From: a bacterium
Lineage (GTDB): Bacteria; Sysuimicrobiota; Sysuimicrobiia; Sysuimicrobiales; Segetimicrobiaceae
Direction of reading: 5' to 3'
DNA: 56,640 bases
Assembly (NCBI GenBank): GCA_035308905.1
Contig: DATGFS010000008.1
Location: forward strand, 1-56,640
Below, one piece after another: positions 15,904-28,575 of the stretch. The notes under the pieces were generated by a model. That model saw nothing but the letters and a program-made list of their open reading frames with translations. It made no database searches and was not told the origin of the DNA. Each line of letters starts with the position of its first letter. Within the stretch, counting starts at the first letter, position 1. A program made the translations under genes and the position numbers.

Positions 15904-16446
15904 TCAGCGTGTTCGGGTCTCGGCCAGCCGCGTGAGGACGTCGCGCGCGCCGGCCCCGAATGCGCCGTCGGTCTCCTCGAAGCACCGCCGCACGCCGGCC
16001 TCGTCCTCATCCCCCACGACGGCGTCGCCGATGGGAAAGAGGACCTGGGTCTCTTTGGCGATGTGCGCGCGCAGGAGATGCACGTAGTCGCGGCAGGCGC
16101 CGAGCACGTCCTCCAGCGTCGCGCTGCCGGCTTCGTGCCGGGCCAGGGTGTCATCGATGACCCCGACCAGCCGGCGGCCCTCCTCGTGTTCGCGCAGCAT
16201 GACCCCGATCGGTCCGCCCTCCACCGGCACCCCGCACTTCGCGAGGCAGGGAAAGAAACACCGTTCCTCTTTCCCGTGATGGCACCGGTCCACGAACATC
16301 CGGCTGAACGCCACCACGCCCCGGAGAAACGCCGCGGGAACGACGCGAGTGCCGGCCGCGTCCGTCACGGCGCGATCGAGCGCCGCCAGCACGTCTTCGA
16401 TGACGCGGTGCTCGGCCGTCAATTCCTGCGTCGCGCGGACGGTCAT
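15904..16446 (-). CDS. Hemerythrin HHE-domain protein
   Basis: A 180-residue four-helix-bundle protein. Its diiron ligands are visible as His13 (TAEHRVIE), His56/His57 with Glu60 (CHHGKEERCFFP), His87 (LREHEEGR), and His128 with Glu132 (RAHIAKETQVLFP). It starts at the ATG at 16446, which overlaps the upstream SDR stop (ATGA), making it the last gene of the benzoyl-CoA reductase operon. Such domains bind O2 or handle iron and NO. At the end of an operon for an extremely oxygen-labile enzyme, O2 scavenging or sensing is a sensible inference. Two extra Cys near the iron site could matter for redox sensing. Confidence 0.87.
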   Translation of the reverse strand: MTVRATQELTAEHRVIEDVLAALDRAVTDAAGTRVVPAAFLRGVVAFSRMFVDRCHHGKEERCFFPCLAKCGVPVEGGPIGVMLREHEEGRRLVGVIDDTLARHEAGSATLEDVLGACRDYVHLLRAHIAKETQVLFPIGDAVVGDEDEAGVRRCFEETDGAFGAGARDVLTRLAETRTR

Positions 16447-17186
16447 ACCATCGTGAGGCCGCCGCCGACGGCGAGCGTCTGGCCGGTGATGAACGACGCG
16501 GCGTCCGACGCGAGGAAGACGGCGGCGTGGGCGACCTCTTCGGGCCGGGCCAGCCGGCCGAGGGGCGTCGCCTTGACGATCGCGGAGATGAGCTTCTCGT
16601 TGCCGGCGGCGATCATGCCCTGCAGCAGCGGCGTGTCGGTGAGCCCGGGCGCCACGACGTTGACGCGGATGCCGTCGCGCGCCACCTCGCGCGCGAGCGC
16701 CTTGCTGAAGGCGATCACCGCACCCTTGGCGCCGGAGTACACCGCTTCCCCCGACGAGCCGGCGCGCCCCGCCTCGGAGGCGATGTTCACGATGGCGCCG
16801 CTGCGCCGCCCGCTCATGTGGGGCACCACCGTATGGCAGGTCGCCAGCATCCCCCGGTAGTTCACGGCGATCACGCGGTCCCAAAACTCCTCGGTACTGT
16901 CCACGAACCGCCCGATCCGGTCCCAACCGGCCGCGTTGACCAGCACGTCGATCCGCCCCCACGCGGCCACCACCCGATCGACACCGGCGACGACGCTGCG
17001 GCGGTCGGTGACGTCCATCACCACCGGCATGCCCGCGCGGGCCGCCTCCGCCACTTCTCCGGCCCCCGCCGCGTTGATGTCGGCGACGGCCACACGGCCG
17101 CCCGCCGAGGCAAACGCCGCGCAGATCGCCTTGCCGATGCCGCTTGCGCCTCCGGTTACCAGAACCACCCGATCGCCGGCTGTCAT
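16443..17186 (-). CDS. SDR dehydrogenase, BadH-like (alicyclic hydroxyacyl-CoA dehydrogenase)
   Basis: A 247-residue classical SDR. It has TGGASGIGK for cofactor binding, NAAG in place of the common NNAG, catalytic Ser in NIASEAGRAGSSGEAVY with its Tyr, and the Lys four residues later. Several blocks (SSGEAVY, GKAL-type AFSKALAREVARDGI, PLGRLARPEE, FITGQTLAVGGGLTM) strongly resemble BadH, the 2-hydroxycyclohexanecarboxyl-CoA dehydrogenase of anaerobic benzoate degradation. In this operon it may oxidise the hydroxy-alicyclic acyl-CoA formed after ring reduction and hydration, replacing the usual zinc-type Had. It is 19 nt after the crotonase gene and overlaps the hemerythrin gene. Confidence 0.82.
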   Translation of the reverse strand: MTAGDRVVLVTGGASGIGKAICAAFASAGGRVAVADINAAGAGEVAEAARAGMPVVMDVTDRRSVVAGVDRVVAAWGRIDVLVNAAGWDRIGRFVDSTEEFWDRVIAVNYRGMLATCHTVVPHMSGRRSGAIVNIASEAGRAGSSGEAVYSGAKGAVIAFSKALAREVARDGIRVNVVAPGLTDTPLLQGMIAAGNEKLISAIVKATPLGRLARPEEVAHAAVFLASDAASFITGQTLAVGGGLTMV

Positions 17187-17205: not shown

Positions 17206-18183
17206 CTACAACTTCTGTCCGCAGTGGCCGCAGAACGCCATCTCCTCGGGCAGGCCGCGCGCCCCGCACGCCGGACACGTGCCCGTCGGCGGGCCCCAGA
17301 CCGATTCCGTCGCCTCGCCGTCGCGCGCCCGCGCACGCAGCGCCCGGTAGTCGACCGGCCGCTTGTCGACGAACGCCGTCATGCCTTCCCAGGGCTCGCG
17401 GGAGGCGAAGTGCAGGCTCAGCCAGTCCCGGGCGTGGCCCGCGGTCAGGTGCCAGGGGAGGTCTTTCCAGAAGTTCAGCTGCTGCTTGGTGTACCTGAGA
17501 CACTCCGGGAACTTGTCGATGAGGTTTTGGCAGAGCGTGTCGACGGCCGCGTCGAGCTCGCTCCGCGGCACCACGCGATTGACGAGGCCCCACTCGAGCG
17601 CCTGCCGCGCGGTGACGGGCTCGCAGGTGAGGAGCATCTCGCGGGCCCGCCGGTCCCCGATCATGATCGGCAGCCACTGCGTGGCGCCGCCCGCCGCGAC
17701 GCTGCCGACTTTCGTGCCCACCTGCCGGATGGTGACGTCATCCGCGGCCACCGCGAGGTCGCAGTCCATGTTCCACTCATTGCCGCCGCCCGCCACGATC
17801 CCGTTCAGCCTGGCGATCGTGGGCTTGCCGATGTTGCGCAGCGCGTCGTGCGCCTCGATGAAGAGGGTCATGTACTTCCAGTAGTCGCGCGGCCGCCGGG
17901 TGTACTCGCCGGCGTACTCCGCGACGTCCCCGCCGGTGCAGAACGCCCGGTCCCCCGCGCCGGTAAGCACCAGCACGGCGACCCCGTCGTCGTAGGAGGC
18001 GTCGCGAAAGGCGTCGCGCATCTCGACGAGGGTGTGCGCCCGGTAGGCGTTGTAGACCTTCGGCCGGTTGATCGTGACCCGCGCCACCCAGTCGCGCTTC
18101 TCATAGAGGATGTCCTGAAAGTGAAACTCCGCCGGCTCCCGCGGCTCCAGGGCTGCGGGAGCCGGCTCGGGCATGGTCTTCAT
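17206..18183 (-). CDS. Crotonase-fold ring hydrolase (Oah/BadI-like) with C-terminal zinc ribbon
   Basis: A 325-residue protein; the ATG at 18183 has GGAGGAGG upstream. Residues ~20-285 form an enoyl-CoA-hydratase-fold domain. Segments such as GAGDRAFCTGGDVAEYA, GGGNEWNM, GGATQWLPIMIG and DKFPECLRYTKQQL resemble 6-oxocyclohex-1-ene-1-carbonyl-CoA hydrolase (Oah/BamA) and, less, BadI. It lacks the central insertion of typical Oah. The usual ECH catalytic Glu pair is not preserved. The C-terminal ~30 residues add a four-Cys zinc ribbon (CPAC, then CGHC), unusual for this family. Adjacent bcr genes support hydrolytic cleavage of the alicyclic ring, but whether it acts as Oah or BadI is open. Confidence 0.78.
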   Translation of the reverse strand: MKTMPEPAPAALEPREPAEFHFQDILYEKRDWVARVTINRPKVYNAYRAHTLVEMRDAFRDASYDDGVAVLVLTGAGDRAFCTGGDVAEYAGEYTRRPRDYWKYMTLFIEAHDALRNIGKPTIARLNGIVAGGGNEWNMDCDLAVAADDVTIRQVGTKVGSVAAGGATQWLPIMIGDRRAREMLLTCEPVTARQALEWGLVNRVVPRSELDAAVDTLCQNLIDKFPECLRYTKQQLNFWKDLPWHLTAGHARDWLSLHFASREPWEGMTAFVDKRPVDYRALRARARDGEATESVWGPPTGTCPACGARGLPEEMAFCGHCGQKL

Positions 18184-18213: not shown

Positions 18214-19023
18214 CTAGGCGGTCCGTTGCTCGGTCAGTTTGCGGGCCCGCTCGCGGCCCAACAGGGCGGCACCCATCGCGCCCGCGTACACGCCCAACTC
18301 GTCAGCGGCGACGTGGAACGTCACACCGAGCGCTTCCTCGATCGCCCGGCGCAGAAGCGGCACCCGTGTGAGGCCGCCCGTGAGCGCGTACTCCGGCTCG
18401 GGCCGGACCCGCTTGAACACCTGGCCGGCGCGTTCCGCGAGCGCCATCACGGCGCCGGCGCACACGTCTTCCGCGCTCTGCCCGGCGGTCAGGTGGTTGA
18501 TAACCTCGGACTCGGCGAAGACGGCGCACACGCTGGAAATCGTCACGGGCGACTTCGCGGCCCCGGCGAGCGGGGCGATGTCCGCGGCGCCGTACCCGAG
18601 GTAGCGCATCGTCTTTTCCAGAAACGCGCCGCTGCCGGCCGCGCACTTGTCGTTCAGGCGAAACGCCTTGACCCGTCCGCGCTCGCCGAGGCGGATGGCC
18701 TTCACGGTCTGGCCGCCGATGTCCAGCACGCTGCGGACCGACGGGAACAGCCGGTACACGGCGTGCGCATGGCACGTGAGCTCGGTGATGGCGAGATCCC
18801 GGAACGGGACCATGTAGCGGCCGTAGCCCGTGGCGGCCACGTAGCCGATCTCGTCGCGCGGGATCCCCGCGGATTCGAGCGCGGCGGCGAGGCCGCGCTC
18901 CGCGGCCTTGGCGAAGTCGTAGCCGCTCGGGATCGCGGCCATTCCGGCGAGCGGGCCGTCGTCGCCCGCGAGCACCACCTTCGTGTACGCCGAGCCGACG
19001 TCGATGCCGGCGGTGAAACTCAT
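18214..19023 (-). CDS. bcrD: Class I benzoyl-CoA reductase, ATPase subunit BcrD-like
   Basis: A 269-residue ASKHA-fold ATPase subunit. The phosphate motif [10 protein letters not shown] is at the N-terminus, and [10 protein letters not shown] is the second nucleotide loop. Cys127 (NDKCAAGSG) and Cys166 ([10 protein letters not shown]) would hold the [4Fe-4S] cluster shared with the partner ATPase subunit. Opening residues TAGIDVG and the fourth position in the operon match BcrD of Thauera-type enzymes. The chain lacks a large insertion, so it could equally be named for the Bzd subclass. The ATG overlaps the stop of the other ATPase gene (ATGA). It couples ATP hydrolysis to electron transfer into BcrBC. 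Confidence 0.87.
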
Positions 19024-19832
19024 GACGGTCCGCCTCCCCCGGCGCCGGCTTCCGCGCCCACCAGCATCCGGTCGAGCGCGTACAGCGCCGCGCCGATCGC
19101 CCCGCAATAGTGTGACTCCTCGCTGACGTTGAGCGGCACGCCGGTCAGATCCGCGAGCAGCTTCACCATCGCGACGTTCCGGGCTACGCCGCCCGTGAAG
19201 GTGACCTCGGGCTCGATCCCCACGCGCCGCAGCAACGACAGGCTGCGGGAGGCGATCGCCGTGTGCACGCCCATCAGCACGTCCTCGGTCTTTCGGCCCC
19301 GGGCGAGCCAGCCCAGGATCTCCGATTCCGCGAAGACCGTGCACGTCGTGGTCATCGTCACCGCGTTCTTGGCGCGCAGCGCGAGCGGGCCGAGCTCGCC
19401 GAGGGGGATCTCCAACGCCTGCGACGCGGCGCCGAGAAACCGGCCGGTCCCCGCCGAGCACTTGTCGTTCATGCTGAAATCCAGCACCTGGCCGGTCTCG
19501 CTGACGCGGATCGCCTTGGTGTCCTGCCCGCCGATGTCGAGCACGCTGCGGGTCCCGGGGAACAGGTAGACGGCGCCGCGCGCGTGGCAGGAGATCTCCG
19601 TGACCTGGGCGTGTCCGAATTCCACCCGGAACCGCCCGTAGCCGGTCCCGATGACGCACGCCACGTCCGCCTCGGCGGCCCCGGCGGTCGCGAGCGCCTG
19701 GCGGAACGCCGTCCCGGCCGCGTCGGTCAACCGGACGCCGGTGTCGACGATCGCGCGGCCGACAAGCCGCGTGTCGTCCATCACGACCGCTTTGGTTTGG
19801 GTGGATCCCACGTCCACCCCGCCGACCAGCAT
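19020..19832 (-). CDS. bcrA: Class I benzoyl-CoA reductase, ATPase subunit BcrA-like
   Basis: A 270-residue ASKHA ATPase paralogous to the next gene. The motifs are [24 protein letters not shown], Cys125 ([11 protein letters not shown]), Cys164 ([10 protein letters not shown]) and TFTGGVARN. The two Cys are 39 residues apart, exactly as in the BcrD-like protein. I use the ATG at 19832, which sits just after a GAGGTGAGGGAG ribosome region. A GTG at 19841 overlapping the bcrB stop (GTGA) would add three residues. The presence of two such ATPase genes, rather than one, separates benzoyl-CoA reductase from 2-hydroxyacyl-CoA dehydratase systems. Confidence 0.87.
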
Positions 19833-19837
19833 CTCCC

Positions 19838-21196
19838 TCACCTCGCCGCGTTCGCGTCGGATGGCCGCCTAATGCCGGCCTCGTGAGATCCCGTCGCCCG
19901 GCGCCCGGCCAGCGACTCGATAAACGCGTCGATCCGGTTCTTGAGCTGCGCATCCGACCACATCCGCGGGTCCACAAGGTCCGATTGGATGAACAGCCCC
20001 GGAATGTCGAAATGGGTGCGCAGCCACTCGCGGACGTCCGGGAGGCCGGTGGACGTGGTGCGGCACGACTTCACGCCGTGGAAGCAGATGCCGTCCACGG
20101 ACCACTCCCGGACCGTCTCGGCGAGCCAGTCCTGCGCGTAGAACATCGGTGTGCTGAACCCCCGCCAGGCGGAGAGCAGCAGCGTCTCGGCCAGACTCTC
20201 GATCGGGCGGGTCACGTCGTAGGCGAAGTCCGAGCCGAAGCCGCCGCCGGCGAACACCATGTACGTGCTGTGGACGAAGACCCCGCCCCACTCCTCGAAC
20301 AGCTCGGCGAAGCGCTTGAGCGCGGCGTAGCATGTGGTGCCGGTCAGGAGCAGCCGGTATTTCTCGTTAAGCGTGCCCATCCCGAGGTGGATGCGCTCGC
20401 GCAGTTCCTCCGCGGCGCCCTCGAAGAACCGGGACCCCTCGGGCGTGCCCCGGTAGAGGTTGGAGATGCCTTGGAACACGATGCCCTCGCGGATCGCGCT
20501 GAACGGCGCGGGCCGGTGGCGGTTCAGCGACAGCACGGCCTGGTAGCCAGCGGCCATGCGGTTGACCTCGGCCATCACCTCGCGCAGCCGGTCGATGTCG
20601 AAGCGCCGGCCGGTCAGACGCTCGCAGAGGCCGATCAGGTCCCGCAGCTGCCCCTCCACGTAGCGCCGGTCGTTCCGGAAGGCCTCGCCGTCGACCCGCG
20701 GGGTCACGTCGCCCCCGCGCCAGGCCGGCAGGTCGAGGACGAACACCGGGCAGTGGTACATCTGCTCCCAGATCTCGGCCCACTTGATGTAGGTGTTGCA
20801 CATGTTCGTCGCGATCGCGAGCGCGGGCTTGGGGACGGTCCCGTTGGGATGCTGGCGGTCCTTGAGCTGCAGCCCCACGTCCGCCTTCACGTAGCCGCAG
20901 ATATCGGGGGAGTAGCCGTAGCCCTCGGCGGTTTGCAAGTATTCAAGCGACCGGCCGCGCACGGCGGTTTGCAGCGACGTGATCTCGGGACAATTGATGG
21001 GCAGATCGAACACCCGCAAGATTTCGTCGAGGGAGCCCATCACAAAGACGTACGCCGTCGGGCGCCCCGCCCCGTCGGCGGCCGTCATCTCCTGCCACCA
21101 CCGGTCCATCAGACGGCGGCCCTCGTTGCGGATGAAGCCGATCGGCGTCTTTGTCTCGGCCATCGTAGGGCCCCCCGGCCCGGCGTATTTGCTCAT
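19838..21196 (-). CDS. bcrB: Class I benzoyl-CoA reductase, subunit BcrB-like
   Basis: A 452-residue protein of the 2-hydroxyacyl-CoA dehydratase/benzoyl-CoA reductase D-component family. Family features include [32 protein letters not shown] with a cluster Cys, [11 protein letters not shown], and the Cys-containing [15 protein letters not shown] near the C-terminus. Together with BcrC it holds [4Fe-4S] clusters and the aromatic substrate site. The start at 21196 overlaps the bcrC stop (ATGA); a later ATG at 21163 is possible. The closest alternative, a 2-hydroxyacyl-CoA dehydratase alpha subunit, is less likely because of the downstream pair of ATPase genes. Confidence 0.85.
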
Positions 21197-22362
21197 GCGA
21201 AGTCGAGCAATAGCGACTCGGCGAACGTCTCGACTTCCATCCGCATCTGCTCGAAAACGGTCATCTTCTCTTCGAACTCCATCACGAGGTGCGGGATCCC
21301 CGCCTTCTCGAGCGCGCGGATGTGGTTGACCTGCTCCTCCAGCCCCGGCTCGCACATCTTGGGCGCGGCGACGATCGCGGCCTCGGCAGTGGCCTCCCGG
21401 ATGCGCCGGAGCAGCATCTCCGGTTTGGGTTTGCGCGGATCGTGCTGCACGGGGCTGTAGCTCGATCCGTCGAGGTACGCGCGGGCGAGGTTCGCGAGCG
21501 GGTCGCCGTCGGTCGGGACGTCCTCGGTCAGCCAGCGCAGCCCGATCAGCAGATCGTCGTCCACGATGTAACAGGCGTCCTGGATCACCGCGAGCAGGTC
21601 GGCGGGAGGCTGCTCGCAGTAGCCGCCCTCGAAGACGACGCGAATCTTGTCCTGCCGCTTGCCCGGCCGCTGGGGCACCAACTCGAGCACTTGGCGGAGC
21701 AGGACGTTGTGCTCTTCGCGCGGCATGACCCCGCCCGCGCGCACGAGCGTGTACGCCTCCACCGCGGACAGCAGCCACGGCGTCTCCCGCTTGACGCGGT
21801 ACAGCTCGCGGAGGAGCCGCCGGTTCTCGTTGAACAGCGCGATACTCCGGCACAAGGCGGCCTCCATGATCGGCCGCCCCGTGGTCTCCTCGATCACGTG
21901 GGCGATCCGGCGGTACTCGTCCCGCAGGTAGGCTGCAGCGTGCGGCGAGGTGACGTTCTGCGGCAGGTAGAGCATCTGGCAGTTGACCTTCGGCAGGTTG
22001 CGCACCCACACGCCGCAGGCGTTGCGTGCCGCGTCGCAGATCGGCGGCGTGACGAACACCGAGAGAAAGTCCAGCCGGCCGGTGAGAGCCAGTTCGAGGG
22101 AGCTGCGGATGATGGAGCACACGAACGCGGCGATCCGCGCGTCGGCTTTGCGGATCTGCACCGCGCTGCCCGCCCCAAGAATCTTGACCGGCAGCATGCC
22201 GGCGGCGTGCGGGATCTCCTCGGGGAAGTACACCTGGAAGTGGCCGAGGACTTTGCCCCCTGGATTGGCCTCGAGCCACCGGTGGACCGCGGGGAACTCC
22301 GGATCCTCCACCAGGGCCCGGCAGTCCTCGAGGATGGCGTCCACACTGTGCCCCGAGGCCAT
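21193..22362 (-). CDS. bcrC: Class I benzoyl-CoA reductase, subunit BcrC-like
   Basis: A 389-residue partner of BcrB. The ATG at 22362 is preceded by GGGAGG at good spacing; an upstream in-frame extension is rejected. Recognisable segments are VLGHFQVYFPEEIPHAAGMLPV, the Cys-bearing IAAFVCSIIRSSLE, PPICDAARNACGVW, VVFEGGYCEQPP and IVAAPKMCEPGLEEQ. This order and the gene order C-B-A-D match the Thauera-type class I benzoyl-CoA reductase, which dearomatises benzoyl-CoA with reduced ferredoxin and ATP. It begins a sub-block of the operon after a 135-bp gap that carries an inverted repeat. Confidence 0.85.
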   Translation of the reverse strand: MASGHSVDAILEDCRALVEDPEFPAVHRWLEANPGGKVLGHFQVYFPEEIPHAAGMLPVKILGAGSAVQIRKADARIAAFVCSIIRSSLELALTGRLDFLSVFVTPPICDAARNACGVWVRNLPKVNCQMLYLPQNVTSPHAAAYLRDEYRRIAHVIEETTGRPIMEAALCRSIALFNENRRLLRELYRVKRETPWLLSAVEAYTLVRAGGVMPREEHNVLLRQVLELVPQRPGKRQDKIRVVFEGGYCEQPPADLLAVIQDACYIVDDDLLIGLRWLTEDVPTDGDPLANLARAYLDGSSYSPVQHDPRKPKPEMLLRRIREATAEAAIVAAPKMCEPGLEEQVNHIRALEKAGIPHLVMEFEEKMTVFEQMRMEVETFAESLLLDFA

Positions 22363-22497: not shown

Positions 22498-23214
22498 TCA
22501 AATAATTCCGCTGCGGAAGGCGAGGGCGACGGCTTCGAGGCGGCTGTGCACCGCCAGCTTCGTCAGGATGCTCTGCGTGTGGTTGCGGACGGTGGCGGTG
22601 CTGATGAAGAGCCGCCGCGCCATGGCCTGGGTGCCTTCCCCGCGGGCCATGAGACACAGGATCTCCCGTTCGCGCGCGGTCAGCTGACCCGGGGCATCCG
22701 CCGGCGAACTCGCGGACGGCGCGCCGTTTCCGTCGCCGCCGGGGACGGCCTCCGGGTGGCGTTCTCTGCGGGCGGCCGTCACGTCCCGGAAGAGGTGGAC
22801 GACGATGTTGCCGCCGGCGCCCGGCACCAGCACCGTGCTGACGTTGAGCCGCCGCTCCGCGCCGTCCTTGCCCTGGGTCGTGAGGTCGTAGGCGTGCGCC
22901 ATCTCGTCACGGCGCGCCATAGTCAGCACGCTGCAGTGCGGATGGCAGAAGAGATTCCCGACCGCGTCGCGCCCGCGCACCACGTCGTGGCACGCCCGGC
23001 CGAGCACCTCCGCGGCCGAATACCCCAACACCGACTCCGCGGCGCGATTCCAGAGAATCACGCGGCAGGCCGGGTCCACGGCCATCACCCCGTCGGTGGT
23101 GCGCGTGAACAAATCGAGAACGTCGGTGGACCCCACGGCCGCCGCGGGCGCGCGGCGGCGCCGACTCCGCCGGGCTACCGGGGCCGGCTTGCGGCGTCGC
23201 TCCACTCGGGCCAT
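22498..23214 (-). CDS. PAS-domain LuxR/NarL-type transcriptional regulator
   Basis: A 238-residue regulator: Arg-rich N-terminus (1-28), a PAS domain (~30-150, with DGVMAVDPACRVILWNRAAESVLGYS), and a C-terminal LuxR-type helix-turn-helix (LTAREREILCLMARGEGTQAMARRL). It has no receiver domain, so the PAS domain is the likely input. Inside the PAS domain a Cys/His cluster (CHDVVRGRD, then FCHPHC) could bind metal, heme or an iron-sulfur cluster and sense oxygen or redox. It overlaps the XdhC gene by 40 nt and precedes bcrC, making it the best candidate for controlling the reductase genes. Confidence 0.85.
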   Translation of the reverse strand: MARVERRRKPAPVARRSRRRRAPAAAVGSTDVLDLFTRTTDGVMAVDPACRVILWNRAAESVLGYSAAEVLGRACHDVVRGRDAVGNLFCHPHCSVLTMARRDEMAHAYDLTTQGKDGAERRLNVSTVLVPGAGGNIVVHLFRDVTAARRERHPEAVPGGDGNGAPSASSPADAPGQLTAREREILCLMARGEGTQAMARRLFISTATVRNHTQSILTKLAVHSRLEAVALAFRSGII

Positions 23215-24305
23215 GTTGCGGCGGGCGTTCGGTGCTCCGCACGGGGAATCCTCTCCGAGAGCGGCCGCTCATCCCTGAGCGCGATGATCTCCGCGGCGAT
23301 CGCGACCGCCACCTCCTCGGGGGTGCGCGCCCCGAGATCGAGGCCGATCGGAGCGCGGACCCGGGTGAGCGCGTCCGCGGGCACGCCCGCGGCGCGGAGC
23401 GCCGTGCACCGGGCCGCATGGGTCCGGCGGCTGCCGAGGATGCCGATGTAGCCCGCGGAGGTCGTAAGCGCGATTTGGAGCAGCGGCAGGTCGAACTTCG
23501 GATCGTGCGTGAGGATGCAGATCGCGGTCCGCCGGTCGACCGGAGCGCGGGTCAGAAACTCGTCCGGCCACTGGACCGCGATGGCGTCGGCGTCCGGGAT
23601 TCGCGCCCGGGTGGCGAGCGCCGCCCGGGCGTCGCACACGGTGACGCGGTAGCCCAAAAACTTCCCGATGCGCGCGACCGCCGCGGCGTGGACCGTCGCG
23701 CCGAAGAGATACATCGCCGGCGCCGGCGCGAACGAGTTGATGAACACCTCCACGTCCGCGCGCTCGCGCGCGCCGGCGCCGTACCGGCGCGCGCCGGTCT
23801 GCGCCCGCTCGAGCATCGCCCGGGCGTCGGCGGTCACCTCGCCGTCCAGCGCCGGATCTCCGAACCCGCCGAGCGTCCGATCCGGCGCGACGAGCATCTT
23901 CGCGCCCGCGTGCGGCCCGGTCACCTCGGTCGCGAGGGCGACCGGACGATCCTCTCGGACCGCCCGCGCGAACGCGGCGAACAGCTCCCCCGTCCCCGTC
24001 ACGCGTTCGACGAAGATGTGAACGATGCCGCCGCAGGACAGCCCGATGGCGACCGCGTCCTCGTCGGAAATGCCGTAGGTCACGCGCGCGGGGCGGCCGG
24101 TCCGGATCACCTGCGCCGCCTCCTCGATCACCGCCGCTTCCACACAGCCCCCGGACACGGAGCCGGCGACTTCAAGATCCTCGGTGACCGCCATCACGGC
24201 GCCGGGATCGCGGGGCGCGGAGCGCTCCGTGGCGATCACGGTCGCGAGGCCGACGCGCCTGCCCCCGGCCAGCCAGCGCTCGACGCGGTCCAGGACGTCC
24301 TTCAT
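23175..24305 (-). CDS. XdhC/CoxI-family protein
   Basis: A 376-residue protein with an N-terminal CoxI/XdhC domain (GLATVIATERSAPRDPGAVM, SVSGGCVEAAVIEEA, GLSCGGIVHIFVE) and a C-terminal XdhC Rossmann domain (VHAAAVARIGKFLGYRVTVCDAR, LTHDPKFDLPLL, GYIGILGSRRTHA). The family sulfurates or inserts molybdenum cofactor for xanthine-oxidase-type enzymes. No such molybdo-enzyme is encoded in the window. In an aromatic operon a client such as 4-hydroxybenzoyl-CoA reductase encoded elsewhere is plausible, but this is inference. The start overlaps the PrpF-like stop (ATGA). Confidence 0.86.
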   Translation of the reverse strand: MKDVLDRVERWLAGGRRVGLATVIATERSAPRDPGAVMAVTEDLEVAGSVSGGCVEAAVIEEAAQVIRTGRPARVTYGISDEDAVAIGLSCGGIVHIFVERVTGTGELFAAFARAVREDRPVALATEVTGPHAGAKMLVAPDRTLGGFGDPALDGEVTADARAMLERAQTGARRYGAGARERADVEVFINSFAPAPAMYLFGATVHAAAVARIGKFLGYRVTVCDARAALATRARIPDADAIAVQWPDEFLTRAPVDRRTAICILTHDPKFDLPLLQIALTTSAGYIGILGSRRTHAARCTALRAAGVPADALTRVRAPIGLDLGARTPEEVAVAIAAEIIALRDERPLSERIPRAEHRTPAATWPEWSDAASRPR

Positions 24306-25462
24306 CGCCGCGCGCCCGCATACGCGCCGAGGACGGCGCGGCGGACCAGCGCGTGCCCCTCCATCAGACGCCGGGCGGTGCGGAAGTAACCCGCCTCGCG
24401 GACGGTCCACGGCGGACCGCCGGACACCAAGGCCCGCGCCGGCATCACCCCGCCGGGATGGCCGATGCGGATCTCCCGATCGTGCCGGGCGCGGGCGGAC
24501 GCCGTTGCGGGAACGGTCCCTGCGATCCGCGCCGCGACCGCGGTGCACGTGGCCGCGGTTCCCGGAAACGTCTTGTGCAGCATCGGCGGCCGGCCGCCGG
24601 CCAGACGCGCGAGCAGATCCACCTCGTCCGGACGCACGTCCCGGCCGGCAAATGTTTGATAGGCGAGCGGCGGCGCCACGGCGACGGGGAGCGGGACGAG
24701 CCCGTCGGCGGACAGGCCCAGGCGGGCGGCCGCGGCATCCTTGACCGCGACGAGGGCCCGCAGGTGCGCGGCCGTGAAGTTCGCGGGGCCTTCGGCGCCG
24801 GTCATGCCTACGTCGGCCGCTGCGACGAACACACACAGGTTGGCAACGTCGACGATGCTCGCCTCCACCGAACCGCCGAGCGCCGGCACGTGCAGGCGGT
24901 CGAGGGGCCGCCCCGTGGGCAGCAGGCGTCCCGTCACGGCGCCGACGGTACCGGTGAAGTCGAGGACGATCTCCGCGCCGCTGCCGGGCACGCCGTCGAT
25001 CACCGTCTCCCCCTCCACCGCCGGGGAGCCGTCGCGGACCGGCACGTGCGCGACGAAGACCTTGGCGGTGTTCGTGTTGTGGACCCGCACCGAGGTCACG
25101 GGCTCCGAGGCGCGGACAAAGCCTTCTTCGATGGCGTACACTCCCACGGCCGCCGACAGGTTGCCGCAGTTGATGTCGTAGTCCACGACCGGCTCGCGGA
25201 TGCTGACCTGGCCGAACGTGTAATCTACGTCGGCGTCGGAGCGCGTAGGTGGGCCGATGATCGCGACCTTGCTGGTGAGGATGTCCGCGCCGCCGAGCCC
25301 GTCGATCTGGCGGGGATCGGGACTGCCGAAGAGCGCGAGGATGGTTTGGTCGCGGGCGGCCCGATCGGCGGGCAGGTCGGCCGCCGACAGAAACACGCCC
25401 TTACTCGTGCCGCCCCGCATCAGCACGCATCTGATGGCGGCCTGTTCCCGCACGGTCCGCAC
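24302..25462 (-). CDS. PrpF-family isomerase (2-methylaconitate / 4-oxalomesaconate type)
   Basis: A 386-residue two-domain diaminopimelate-epimerase-fold protein read from a GTG. Hallmarks are VLMRGGTSKGVFL near the N-terminus, DGLGGADILTSKVAI, and NCGNLSAAVGVYAI with the conserved Cys. The C-terminal half has TNTAKV and EIRIGHPGGVMP. Family members include PrpF (2-methylaconitate cis-trans isomerase) and GalD (4-oxalomesaconate tautomerase of gallate degradation). Both fit a carbon-catabolic operon, and the aconitase-like LeuCD genes upstream make an unsaturated tricarboxylate substrate attractive. The substrate is not decided by sequence. Confidence 0.83.
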   Translation of the reverse strand: MRTVREQAAIRCVLMRGGTSKGVFLSAADLPADRAARDQTILALFGSPDPRQIDGLGGADILTSKVAIIGPPTRSDADVDYTFGQVSIREPVVDYDINCGNLSAAVGVYAIEEGFVRASEPVTSVRVHNTNTAKVFVAHVPVRDGSPAVEGETVIDGVPGSGAEIVLDFTGTVGAVTGRLLPTGRPLDRLHVPALGGSVEASIVDVANLCVFVAAADVGMTGAEGPANFTAAHLRALVAVKDAAAARLGLSADGLVPLPVAVAPPLAYQTFAGRDVRPDEVDLLARLAGGRPPMLHKTFPGTAATCTAVAARIAGTVPATASARARHDREIRIGHPGGVMPARALVSGGPPWTVREAGYFRTARRLMEGHALVRRAVLGAYAGARR

Positions 25463-25466
25463 CCCC

Positions 25467-26609
25467 CTACGTCGTCACGATCTGCACGGTGCACGCCGCG
25501 CCTTCGATGCCCGCCGCCTTGCCGCCGCGGCAGTGCGCCAGGCCCACGCGGGCGCCCTCGACCTGCCGGCTGCCCGCCGCGCCGCGCAGCTGGCGGACGA
25601 TCTCGACGACCTGCGCGACGCCGGTCGCGCCGAGCGGATGGCCCTTGCCGAGCAGGCCGCCGCTCGGATTGATCGGCAGGCGGCCGCCGATGTCGGCGTC
25701 GCCGCGCTCGAGCGCCGCGGGATAGGTCCCCGCGGCGTGGAGGCCCAGGCCCTCGACGCGTAATATTTCGGCGATGGAGAAGCAATCGTGGACCTCCGCG
25801 AGATCGATCTCCTCGGGTCCCAGACCGGCACGCTCGTAGGCGTCCCAGGCCGTCTGCCGGGTCAGCGGCTCGAACGCCATCGATCCCGGCTCGGCCTCGA
25901 CGATGCCGGTTCGCAGCGCCGACGCGGCGAGACGCATCGCCCGCCCCGGCCCGGACCGGCACGCCACGCGGTCGCTGCACAATACCGCGGCGGCCGCGCC
26001 GTCGCTCACCGGCGAACAATCGTGCAGGCACAGCGGGTCCGCGATCGGGCGCGAGGCCAGCACCTCGTCGAGCGTGACCGGCGTCCGGATCTGGGCGAGC
26101 GGGTTGCGGGCGGCGTTCCGCTTGTTCTTCACCGAGACCATCGCGATCTGCCGGCGGGTCGTGCCGAACTCGGCCATGTGCCGCCGCGCGCGCATCGCGT
26201 AGATCGCCGGCATGGTGAGACCCACCGCGCCCTCGATGTCGTCCTCGTCGGGGGTGAGCGCGCCGCGAAACCTGGCCGTGAGGTGCTCGACACCGACGGC
26301 GAGCACGATGTCGTGCGCGCCGGCGAGGATGGCCAGCATCGCCTCCCGGATCGCGACGGCGCCGCTGCTGCACGCGTCCTCCACGTTCACCAGCGGGATG
26401 CCCGCAAGCCCCGCGCCGGCCAGGACGCGCTGCCCGGTCACCATGCCTTGGAAGACATGCCCGCAGTACGCCGCCTCGACGCGGCGGGGATCCAGGCCGG
26501 CGTCCGCGATCGCGTCGAGCACGGCGTCCACGCCCAGGTCCGCCGCGGTGCGATCCGGATGCTTGCCGAACTTCGTCATCCCGACGCCGGCGATCCACAC
26601 GTCAGCCAT
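25467..26609 (-). CDS. Thiolase-family protein (SCP2/lipid-transfer type)
   Basis: A 380-residue thiolase-like enzyme. The nucleophile Cys80 lies in NVEDACSSGA. Active-site His motifs are AEVHDCFSIAE and GKGHPLGATG. The C-terminal CxG motif of classical thiolases is replaced by AHCRGG. This SCP2-type group works with DUF35 proteins, and the DUF35 gene directly upstream overlaps it by 8 nt. Documented thiolase/DUF35 pairs include archaeal HMG-CoA synthase complexes, steroid retro-aldolases and benzoylsuccinyl-CoA thiolase BbsAB. A thiolytic or aldol C-C step in side-chain degradation is inferred. Confidence 0.86.
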   Translation of the reverse strand: MADVWIAGVGMTKFGKHPDRTAADLGVDAVLDAIADAGLDPRRVEAAYCGHVFQGMVTGQRVLAGAGLAGIPLVNVEDACSSGAVAIREAMLAILAGAHDIVLAVGVEHLTARFRGALTPDEDDIEGAVGLTMPAIYAMRARRHMAEFGTTRRQIAMVSVKNKRNAARNPLAQIRTPVTLDEVLASRPIADPLCLHDCSPVSDGAAAAVLCSDRVACRSGPGRAMRLAASALRTGIVEAEPGSMAFEPLTRQTAWDAYERAGLGPEEIDLAEVHDCFSIAEILRVEGLGLHAAGTYPAALERGDADIGGRLPINPSGGLLGKGHPLGATGVAQVVEIVRQLRGAAGSRQVEGARVGLAHCRGGKAAGIEGAACTVQIVTT

Positions 26610-27024
26610 CGCGCGCCTCCGCCGCCGGGTGGAACCGGTAGCCCAGCACCGGTCGGCCTTCCGCGTTCACGCCCACCGGTTCGACCCGCAGCTCCACCGG
26701 CATGCCGATGCGCACGTCACCGGGCGCAGCCGCCAGCTGCGCCAGGAGGCGCACGCCCTCCGGAAGATCGGCGTACGCGAGCACGTACGGCGTGGCGAAC
26801 GCCGGCGTCGACTGGTGCACCGTCGTGTACGTGTAGAGCGTGCCGCGCGTGCTGAGCGGCACGGCCGTCATCGCCGAGGAGCGGCACCGGGCGCAGATCC
26901 GGCGCCGGGGAAAGAAATGCGCGCCGCATGCCTCGCAGCGGCTCCCGAGGAGCCGGGGCGTCCCGCCGGCGTCGACGTCGAAGAGTCCGGGACGAAGCGG
27001 GACCGCCGCCGTCGTGACCGCCAC
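26602..27024 (-). CDS. DUF35 zinc-ribbon/OB-fold protein
   Basis: A 140-residue protein read from a GTG. It has an N-terminal rubredoxin-like zinc ribbon (RCEACGAHFFPRRRICARC, about residues 29-47) followed by an OB-fold region (GTLYTYTTVHQST, YVLAYADLPEGVRLLAQL). DUF35 proteins deliver acyl-CoA to, or complete the active site of, SCP2-type thiolases. It overlaps the thiolase start and follows the SDR stop by 1 nt. BbsA of anaerobic toluene degradation is a relevant relative, though sequence alone cannot assign that role. Confidence 0.87.
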   Translation of the reverse strand: MAVTTAAVPLRPGLFDVDAGGTPRLLGSRCEACGAHFFPRRRICARCRSSAMTAVPLSTRGTLYTYTTVHQSTPAFATPYVLAYADLPEGVRLLAQLAAAPGDVRIGMPVELRVEPVGVNAEGRPVLGYRFHPAAEARDG

Positions 27025-27025
27025 G

Positions 27026-27772
27026 TCAGTAGGCTCCCACGCTGCGGCCGCCGCAGACGTACAGCAGCTGTCCGGTCACGTACGACGCCTCGTCGCTCGC
27101 GAAGAACCCCACCGCGTTGGCGATGTCGGCGGGGGTCCCGATGCGGCCGGCGGGCACGGTCTTGAGCAGACGCTCCTGGACGTCGTCTTTGAGCGCGCGG
27201 AACAACGGGGTGTCGACCAGCGCCGGCGCGACCGCGTTGACCGTGATGCCGAACTTGCCGAGCTCCAACGCCAGCGTGCGGGTCACGCTGACCACGGCGC
27301 CCTTGCTCGCCGCGTAGTTGACCTGGCCCGGGTTGCCGAGCCAGGCCCGCGACGCGATGCTCACGATGCGGCCGCGGCGCTGCTCCATCATGAGCGGCAC
27401 CGCCTCGCGGCACAGCAGGTAGCACGACTTGAGGTTCACGCGGAGCACTTCGTCCCAGTCCTCCTCGGACATCTTGGTGAGGTAGCGGTCGCGGGCGATC
27501 CCGGCGTTGTTGACGAGGATGTCGACGGTCCCGAAGGCCTCGCGCGCCGTCCGCACGACCTCCGCGGCGCCGGCCGCGCGGCTGATGTCCGCGGCCACCC
27601 CGACGGCCTGCGCGTCCGCGTCCTCGAGGCCGGCGACGACGCGCCGGACGCGGTCGGCGATCACGTCGTTGACCACCACCTTGGCGCCCCCGGCGGCCAG
27701 GTGGCGCGCGATCCCCTCGCCGATTCCCTGCCCGGCTCCGGTGACAACGGCCACTCGTCCCTGAACGCCCAT
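27026..27772 (-). CDS. SDR-family 3-hydroxyacyl-CoA-type dehydrogenase
   Basis: A 248-residue classical SDR. The cofactor motif is TGAGQGIGEGIA. Catalytic residues are Ser in VSIASRAWLG, Tyr in NYAASKG and Lys four residues later. GGGGGAGCGACG precedes the ATG. FabG-like proteins of this type reduce or oxidise 3-oxo/3-hydroxyacyl thioesters. Between an enoyl-CoA hydratase and a thiolase pair, oxidation of a 3-hydroxyacyl-CoA is the natural job. It is not closely similar to the BadH-like SDR of the same operon. Confidence 0.84.
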   Translation of the reverse strand: MGVQGRVAVVTGAGQGIGEGIARHLAAGGAKVVVNDVIADRVRRVVAGLEDADAQAVGVAADISRAAGAAEVVRTAREAFGTVDILVNNAGIARDRYLTKMSEEDWDEVLRVNLKSCYLLCREAVPLMMEQRRGRIVSIASRAWLGNPGQVNYAASKGAVVSVTRTLALELGKFGITVNAVAPALVDTPLFRALKDDVQERLLKTVPAGRIGTPADIANAVGFFASDEASYVTGQLLYVCGGRSVGAY

Positions 27773-27786
27773 CGTCGCTCCCCCTT

Positions 27787-28575
27787 CTATCGCCCGGCGA
27801 AATGCGGCTCGCGTTTTTCCACGAACGCCTGAATGCCCTCACGGCGGTCCCGGCTGCCGCGCAGCACCGCGTGCGCCGTGCGTTCGAACGCGAGTCCGGC
27901 CTCGAGGCTGACGTCGTGGCACACGTGCACCGCCGTCTTGATGGCGGCGATCGACAGCGGCGCCCGCGACGCAATGGTGCGCGCCAGCGCCCGGGCGCCT
28001 TCCAGCAGCCCGTCGCGCGGGACGAGCCGGTTGACGAGGCCGATGCGGTAGGCCTCGGCGGCGTCGATGTGCTCGCCCGTGAACATCAGTTCTTTGGCCC
28101 GGGCCGCGCCGATCGCGCGCGTCAGCCGCTGGGTGCCGCCGGCGCCGGGCATGCTGCCGACTTTGGCCTCCGGGAACCCGAACCGGGCCCCCTCCGCCGC
28201 CACCCGCAGGTCGCACGCCAACGCGAGCTCCAATCCGCCCCCCAGTACGTAGCCATGGAGGGCGGCGATCACCGGCAGCGGGAGCGCCTCGATCTGGCCG
28301 AACACCCGTCGCACACCTTCGGCGAGCAGATCGCGGCCGGCGCCGTCGTGCTGGTATTCCTGCGACCGCGCCTTCAGGTCGGCGCCGACGCAGAACGCCT
28401 TCTCACCCGCGGCGGCGAGGATCAGCGCCCGCACCTCGCCGCCGGTCGCAACGTCTGCCAGCACCTCACCGATCCGATCCAGCATCGCGGCCGTCAACGC
28501 GTTCAGCGCTTCGGGCCGGTTGAGCGTCAACACGCCGATCGTCTCCTGCCGGTCAAACAGCACGGCTTCGCCCAC
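27787..28575 (-). CDS. Enoyl-CoA hydratase/isomerase
   Basis: A 262-residue crotonase-fold enzyme read from a GTG with GGAGGAGGGAG upstream. Both catalytic glutamates of true hydratases are present: Glu116 ([11 protein letters not shown]) and Glu136 ([12 protein letters not shown]). The oxyanion-hole segments are KAFCVGADL and GYVLGGG. It ends in the usual [15 protein letters not shown]. It probably hydrates a 2-enoyl-CoA produced in side-chain or ring-fragment oxidation. It overlaps the CoA-transferase gene by 23 nt. It is distinct from the ring-hydrolase-like and dienoyl-hydratase-like crotonases in this region. Confidence 0.88.

Follow-up and report, generated by a model that had tools for sequence, protein, structure and literature searches.

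What does a crotonase with a zinc ribbon at its C-terminus do beside the genes of a benzoyl-CoA-type reductase? The question is raised by a 56,640-nucleotide stretch of DNA (contig DATGFS010000008.1 of assembly GCA_035308905.1; that whole stretch is called the window here) from a bacterium of the family Segetimicrobiaceae, phylum Sysuimicrobiota, in which an earlier sequence-only reading had noticed such a gene. Judged from their sequences, crotonases of this build are a real enzyme family, kept in many uncultured bacteria and in some archaea. We think that the window protein probably serves as ring-opening hydrolase in a reductive pathway of the benzoyl-CoA type and that its ribbon is a structural part of the enzyme, a proposal whose substrate, chemistry, zinc and ribbon role we infer from observed sequence, family relations, conservation and gene context. 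The gene and its parts are as follows.

17206..18183, minus strand: crotonase with C-terminal zinc ribbon, proposed ring-opening hydrolase; open reading frame of 325 residues
17347..18093, minus strand: crotonase domain, residues 31–279 (Pfam ECH_1, E 1e-51; crotonases of the PDB at Z up to 28.4)
17209..17280, minus strand: zinc ribbon, residues 302–325, with C303, C306, C318 and C321 (sub-threshold Pfam match and conservation)
17776..17778, minus strand: codon of E136 (alignment of family rows)

The reading frame contains no internal stop and holds the ribbon in frame at its C-terminus. Against ECH_1 the protein scores 176.2 bits (gathering score 27), which places it in the crotonase superfamily, and its VIA-align matches to PDB crotonases run mainly over residues 15–274, with the ribbon barely covered. 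Among the 60 PDB chains listed of 226, none covers the ribbon. The tail has the motif C-x2-C-x11-C-x2-C. Its top zinc-ribbon model, Zn_ribbon_3, reaches 21.4 bits at residues 302–325 against a gathering score of 27, and since every ribbon model scores under its own gathering score, Pfam by itself is insufficient to call a ribbon; the same shortfall is what could be said for the tail being an assembly error, a frameshift or a fusion artefact. The AlphaFold2 model is confident across the tail blocks (block means of pLDDT 89–97; 88.8 for the whole protein), and the relatives of the protein speak against an artefact.

A single scan across 84,980 species genomes found 170 matches, and the 80 best were retained; the records of these 80 loci are 79 metagenome-assembled genomes and 1 bin, with no cultured bearer among them. 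The set compared numbers 102 sequences (the relatives less two duplicates, plus four further loci) and comprises clade A, with 84 sequences and the window protein within the clade, and clade B, a second clade of the ribbon family with 18. Within the window's own phylum a relative at E 1e-60 occurs in 20 of 43 genomes. Four cysteines in two knuckles (C-x2-C-x9-14-C-x2-C, with a middle spacing of x11 in 95 sequences and of x14 in 3) stand in frame in 98 of the 102, namely 84/84 in clade A and 14/18 in clade B. Three relatives, all of clade B, lack the cysteines (L074, L105 and L106), and one sequence, L107, is masked at the tail; L105 and L106 end in a lysine- and arginine-rich tail in place of the ribbon. 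The sequence-only reading had named tail-less relatives as the sign of an artefact, and with the tail present in 98 of 102 relatives that origin is rejected and, in our estimate, virtually excluded. The four cysteines are invariant across 54 chosen alignment rows, a choice that leaves out tail-less L074 and other rows, and a linker of the form E-x1-2-[WFYH]-G precedes the ribbon in 83/84 clade A and 10/18 clade B sequences. Over 22 tail codons the closest relative (91% identical) shows 5 synonymous and 2 non-synonymous codon differences, and four further relatives show 4/6, 11/6, 4/6 and 5/8 (synonymous/non-synonymous). The suspicion that the ribbon is foreign to Oah and BadI also proved sound, as none of the four Oah or four BadI-type proteins compared carries it, and searches of open-licence literature turned up no account of a ring-hydrolase crotonase that bears a zinc ribbon.

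To which family does the crotonase part belong? The top three NCBIfam models for the window protein are BadI (TIGR03210, 203.1 bits against a cut-off of 467.6), Oah/BamA (TIGR03200, 192.4 against 464.45) and MenB (TIGR01929, 191.4 against 342.7); it stays below all three curated cut-offs, and by these tests its sequence belongs to neither Oah nor BadI. True Oah proteins in genomes reached through the loci score 561 (L148), 542 (L160) and 516 bits (L161) against TIGR03200, none of them with a ribbon, and a search for plasmid-borne Oah as extra references found none. In a tree of 58 rows and 262 core columns, with insertion and ribbon columns excluded, Oah and the ribbon family fall on one side and BadI-type proteins and MenB on the other (support 99/97), a division that an earlier tree with an enoyl-CoA-hydratase outgroup also shows (SH-aLRT 99).

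Individual residues were compared over 99 family rows, 4 Oah rows (3 of them over cut-off), 3 BadI-type rows, E. coli MenB and the outlying L147. E136 is present in 99/99 family rows and 4/4 Oah rows, with V in 3/3 BadI-type rows and MenB and E in L147. Position 163 is A or P in 99/99 family rows (A163 in the window protein) and D in 3/3 BadI-type rows and MenB, so that the window protein lacks the Asp of the SVDPG/SFDGG loop. G166 and W254 are common to the ribbon family and Oah, and E89, Y90, M105 and P172 match Oah in most rows, all of them unlike the three BadI-type rows or MenB; the segment E89-Y90-P98-Y101-M105-F108 is likewise Oah-like in most rows. The window protein thus has the Oah-type active-site residues (E136, a GGAT loop, no D163), whose standing as markers is read from the alignment, and the Oah-like blocks claimed for its crotonase part are real when set against the genuine Oah L148.

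Several observations weigh against an affinity with Oah. Monophyly of the ribbon family is weakly supported in the core tree (83/56), and the Oah branch is long, at 3.93 changes per column; a first tree that kept the ribbon and insertion columns nested Oah inside the ribbon family, which the core-column tree did not. Over the core columns the window protein is 44% identical to BadI (L146) and 35% to Oah (L148), D86 (N in 4/4 Oah), R179 and R275 match BadI and not Oah, and the plasmid crotonase L147, on the BadI/MenB side, shares E136, P163 and G166. The position of Oah is uncertain because of its long branch and the higher core identity to BadI, and given that identity it is shared residues, more than general similarity, that carry the grouping with Oah. 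With these reservations, we regard the ribbon crotonases as an Oah-related family whose members are probably ring-opening enzymes.

The insertion of Oah divides this family. Three Oah proteins over cut-off carry 49 extra residues after residue 207, behind the VVP motif, where the window protein has none. The sequence-only reading, which had called the Oah insertion missing, was therefore right for the window protein and not for its family: no insertion is found at that site in 52/99 rows and one of 30–54 residues in 47/99, and the insertions of the long ribbon members resemble that of Oah in their opening sequence. In another genome, a protein with likeness to Oah and a length of up to 393 residues (L163 in G205; 356 bits, below cut-off) sits on a long branch and is perhaps a further ring hydrolase.

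Which step such an enzyme could serve is indicated by its neighbours. The crotonase gene lies within a tight minus-strand run that codes for BcrC-type and BcrB-type proteins, two BcrA/D-type ATPases, the crotonase, a short-chain dehydrogenase (SDR) and a hemerythrin-like protein.

21193..22362, minus strand: BcrC-type reductase subunit, HGD-D fold (TIGR02263, 306 bits, cut-off 421; Pfam HGD-D)
19838..21163, minus strand: BcrB-type reductase subunit (closest among solved structures to MbdO of 3-methylbenzoyl-CoA reductase)
19020..19832, minus strand: BcrA/D-type ATPase (activase) 1 (TIGR00241, 257 bits, over cut-off)
18214..19023, minus strand: BcrA/D-type ATPase (activase) 2 (TIGR00241, 198 bits, over cut-off; Pfam BcrAD_BadFG)
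16443..17186, minus strand: SDR (top model BadH, TIGR03206, 264 bits, below the cut-off of 431)
15904..16446, minus strand: hemerythrin-like protein, its start overlapping the SDR stop codon (Pfam Hemerythrin, 5.8e-22; reading frames)

Among solved structures the BcrB-type subunit is nearest to MbdO (402 bits, E 2.6e-119), with BzdO at 96 bits and 2-hydroxyisocaproyl-CoA dehydratase at 87, which marks the reductase as of the class I methylbenzoyl-CoA-reductase type. The description of the protein as a ring-hydrolase-like crotonase gains support from this benzoyl-CoA-reductase-type operon. Because of the gene context together with the active-site residues, the ring-opening step is assigned to the window protein, which, from sequence, most likely stands in for Oah in a methylbenzoyl-CoA-reductase-type pathway. 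The BcrC/BcrB and two-ATPase reductase would dearomatise an aryl-CoA, and a hydratase and a dehydrogenase (the SDR here, a Had-like zinc alcohol dehydrogenase in many relatives) would then give the 6-oxo ring. To this ring the crotonase would add water; E136 probably acts as the base while an oxyanion hole holds the thioester, and the ring would be hydrolysed to an open-chain pimeloyl-CoA derivative, as by Oah. A conserved linker of E-x2-W-G type leads to the four-cysteine ribbon. The ribbon is most likely a zinc binder and a fixed structural element of the enzyme, in subunit packing or in closure of the C-terminal region, rather than a docking site for the reductase.

The SDR invites another assignment. 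In the Rhodopseudomonas route BadI hydrolyses 2-ketocyclohexanecarboxyl-CoA to pimeloyl-CoA, and the window protein might instead act on this saturated substrate: BadI is its top model, its core is closer to L146 than to Oah, and the next gene is an SDR whose top model, BadH, fits a BadI-type route and keeps a BadI-type substrate in play. Its score is nevertheless under half of the BadI cut-off, D163 has given way to A or P throughout the family and E136 stands where BadI has V, the tree places the family with Oah, and a Had-like zinc dehydrogenase occurs in 41/84 clade A loci; we regard a BadI-type activity as unlikely. A third assignment, to an ordinary pathway hydratase of Dch-like or PaaF-like kind, draws on the promiscuity of crotonase folds and on the match of E136 to the first of the glutamates that catalyse the reaction of classical hydratases, E144 in rat. 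The site of the second (rat E164, presumably), located by eye in the alignment, is G156 in 99/99 family rows, however, and separate hydratase genes adjoin the crotonase in many loci, which makes a plain hydratase very improbable.

Does the context of the window recur, and what does it say of the ribbon? Reductase or activase genes are present in 63/84 fetched loci of clade A (51/60 at >=10 kb; the 84 exclude the window itself) and in 0/13 of clade B (0/9). Had-like zinc alcohol dehydrogenase genes occur in 41/84 clade A loci against 1/13 in clade B, and HcrA-like genes in 11/84 against 0/13. The hydratase next to the crotonase in L055 has Dch as its top model (202 bits, cut-off 292.5). The Had-like and Hcr-like names are those of top NCBIfam models below cut-off (245/339, 928/995 and 282/405 bits), and Dch was not counted by tblastn, crotonases being prone to cross-match. 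Counting against the assignment, 21/84 clade A loci (9/60 at >=10 kb) show no reductase gene in the fetched stretch.

Clade B bears directly on the ribbon. It had been proposed that the ribbon mediates assembly with the reductase, or more broadly that it is a docking or redox-sensing module tying the hydrolase to an oxygen-sensitive partner, and the ribbon does occur in every clade A sequence, mostly beside a reductase. In clade B, 14 of 18 sequences keep the ribbon although 13/13 fetched loci show no reductase gene and BcrC is found in 1/14 genomes. The comparison weakens the docking part of the proposal: since clade B keeps its ribbon mostly without the reductase, a structural role is likelier than docking, and we consider a docking or sensing module rather improbable. 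The ribbon as a scaffold mark shared with other cluster enzymes was considered and rejected; over 919 conserved genes of the loci, crotonases included, the pattern is found chiefly in crotonase clusters (70/142 and 24/27) and otherwise in few, scattered ones.

The neighbours of the clade B genes include thiolases in 8/11 loci and EthD in 6/11. One thiolase tested is over the cut-off for 3-oxoadipyl-CoA thiolase (603.6 against 597 bits), and hydratase neighbours in one locus tested score 334/371 bits for PaaF and 271/345 for PaaG. PaaA/PaaC occur in 12/14 clade B genomes of the window's phylum, but lend weak support to a phenylacetate link because they also occur in 5/6 clade A genomes and in 31/43 overall. 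Clade B possibly serves oxygen-dependent ring opening. Clade B genes lie beside PaaF/PaaG-like, 3-oxoadipyl-CoA thiolase and EthD genes in L180–L185, L188, L189, L195, L203, L204, L074 and L077.

Do these crotonases replace Oah where they occur? Of the 50 genomes searched, 49 have a clade A gene, and none of these 49 holds an Oah over cut-off; the single Oah-positive genome, G087, has a gene of clade B and none of clade A. BadI over cut-off is found in 0/50, with weaker BadI- or MenB-like matches in 12/50. The genome from which the window comes is 97.3% complete, and apart from the crotonase its best gene reaches 65 bits against the Oah model and 147 against that of BadI. G087 belongs to a phylum of which 301 genomes were compared: Oah over cut-off is present in 3, and 2 others have a match resembling Oah at 356–386 bits. 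Twelve other matches at E 1e-40 score 140–175 bits, 11 of them with the ribbon, and no genome has two matches at that limit. The ribbon-less one of the twelve (L170) has a frame that ends in unrelated sequence.

A second substitution is seen in the window's phylum, where BcrC occurs in 13 of the 43 genomes: 6 have a clade A gene, one (G001) has a clade B gene elsewhere and 6 have neither. In 5 of the 7 BcrC genomes without a clade A gene (G001, G035, G036, G039 and G040), a protein of the Amidohydro_2 family stands between activase and SDR. Among the 43 genomes this protein is confined to those 5, none with a clade A crotonase. Its genes are listed by locus.

L197, 5883-6770 (G039): slot amidohydrolase, Amidohydro_2
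L198 (G040), L199 (G036), L200 (G035) and L201 (G001): like amidohydrolases at the same slot

The exchange of one hydrolase for another between activase and SDR supports a hydrolytic step at that slot, from a small number of related genomes. Of the two remaining BcrC genomes, G005 has its reductase starting near a contig end. The other, G023, belongs to the window's genus and tells against the assignment, as beside its reductase it shows neither a hydrolase of this family at E 1e-60 nor an amidohydrolase.

Other genes of the neighbourhood recur as well. The hemerythrin-like gene of the window (15904-16446) has counterparts near reductase genes in L029, L041, L046, L047, L073, L089 and L090, and its product might guard the reductase from oxygen. 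A PAS-LuxR regulator at 22498-23214 adjoins the reductase genes, as in several relatives. Upstream minus-strand genes at 23175-28575, for a thiolase, an SDR and a hydratase, and for what we take to be XdhC-like and PrpF-like proteins and a DUF35-like zinc protein, recur in L176 and, in part, in L201; they may be part of the same pathway.

Taken further, these results would outline a second, bamA-negative branch of ring opening, in which many uncultured bacterial phyla and some Thermoplasmata have ribbon crotonases instead of Oah in their methylbenzoyl-CoA-reductase-type clusters, with clade B having moved to a phenylacetate-like, oxygen-dependent route; we put this forward tentatively, with less than even confidence. 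OAH is described in one paper as highly conserved among bacteria that degrade monocyclic aromatics via the benzoyl-CoA pathway, and the reference list of that paper names a study using the OAH gene as a functional marker for such anaerobes (PMC5742626). As no searched clade A genome has Oah over cut-off, a bamA marker would miss such organisms and, if the proposed branch is real, bamA-based surveys of anaerobic aromatic degradation overlook all of them. With members that have or lack the Oah insertion, and have or lack the ribbon, the family also lends itself to a natural comparison among ring hydrolases.

How, finally, does the window protein compare with known systems? It resembles Oah in its crotonase fold, E136, GGAT-type loop, EY/P/YM/F segment and, in the 47 long family rows, the site of the insertion, and differs in having a ribbon, D86 instead of N, no insertion of its own and 192 of the 464 bits required. 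With BadI (TIGR03210) it shares 44% identity, the lack of an insertion and an adjoining BadH-like SDR, but it has E136 and a ribbon, lacks D163 and scores 203 of 468 bits. MenB, the 1,4-dihydroxy-2-naphthoyl-CoA synthase, is the closest solved structure by sequence (E 2.3e-50), yet the protein reaches 191 of 343 bits, and MenB has D163, V at 136 and no ribbon. The tail is like Zn_ribbon_3 (PF13248) and DZR in its four cysteines and FCGxCG knuckle, and unlike them in scoring below the gathering score and in being fused to a crotonase. At the level of the pathway the likeness is to the mbd system for 3-methylbenzoyl-CoA reduction in Azoarcus sp. CIB, through the BcrB-type subunit nearest to MbdO; in that strain MbdMNOPQWXYZ are described as covering the steps to hydroxymethylpimelyl-CoA (PMC4424350).
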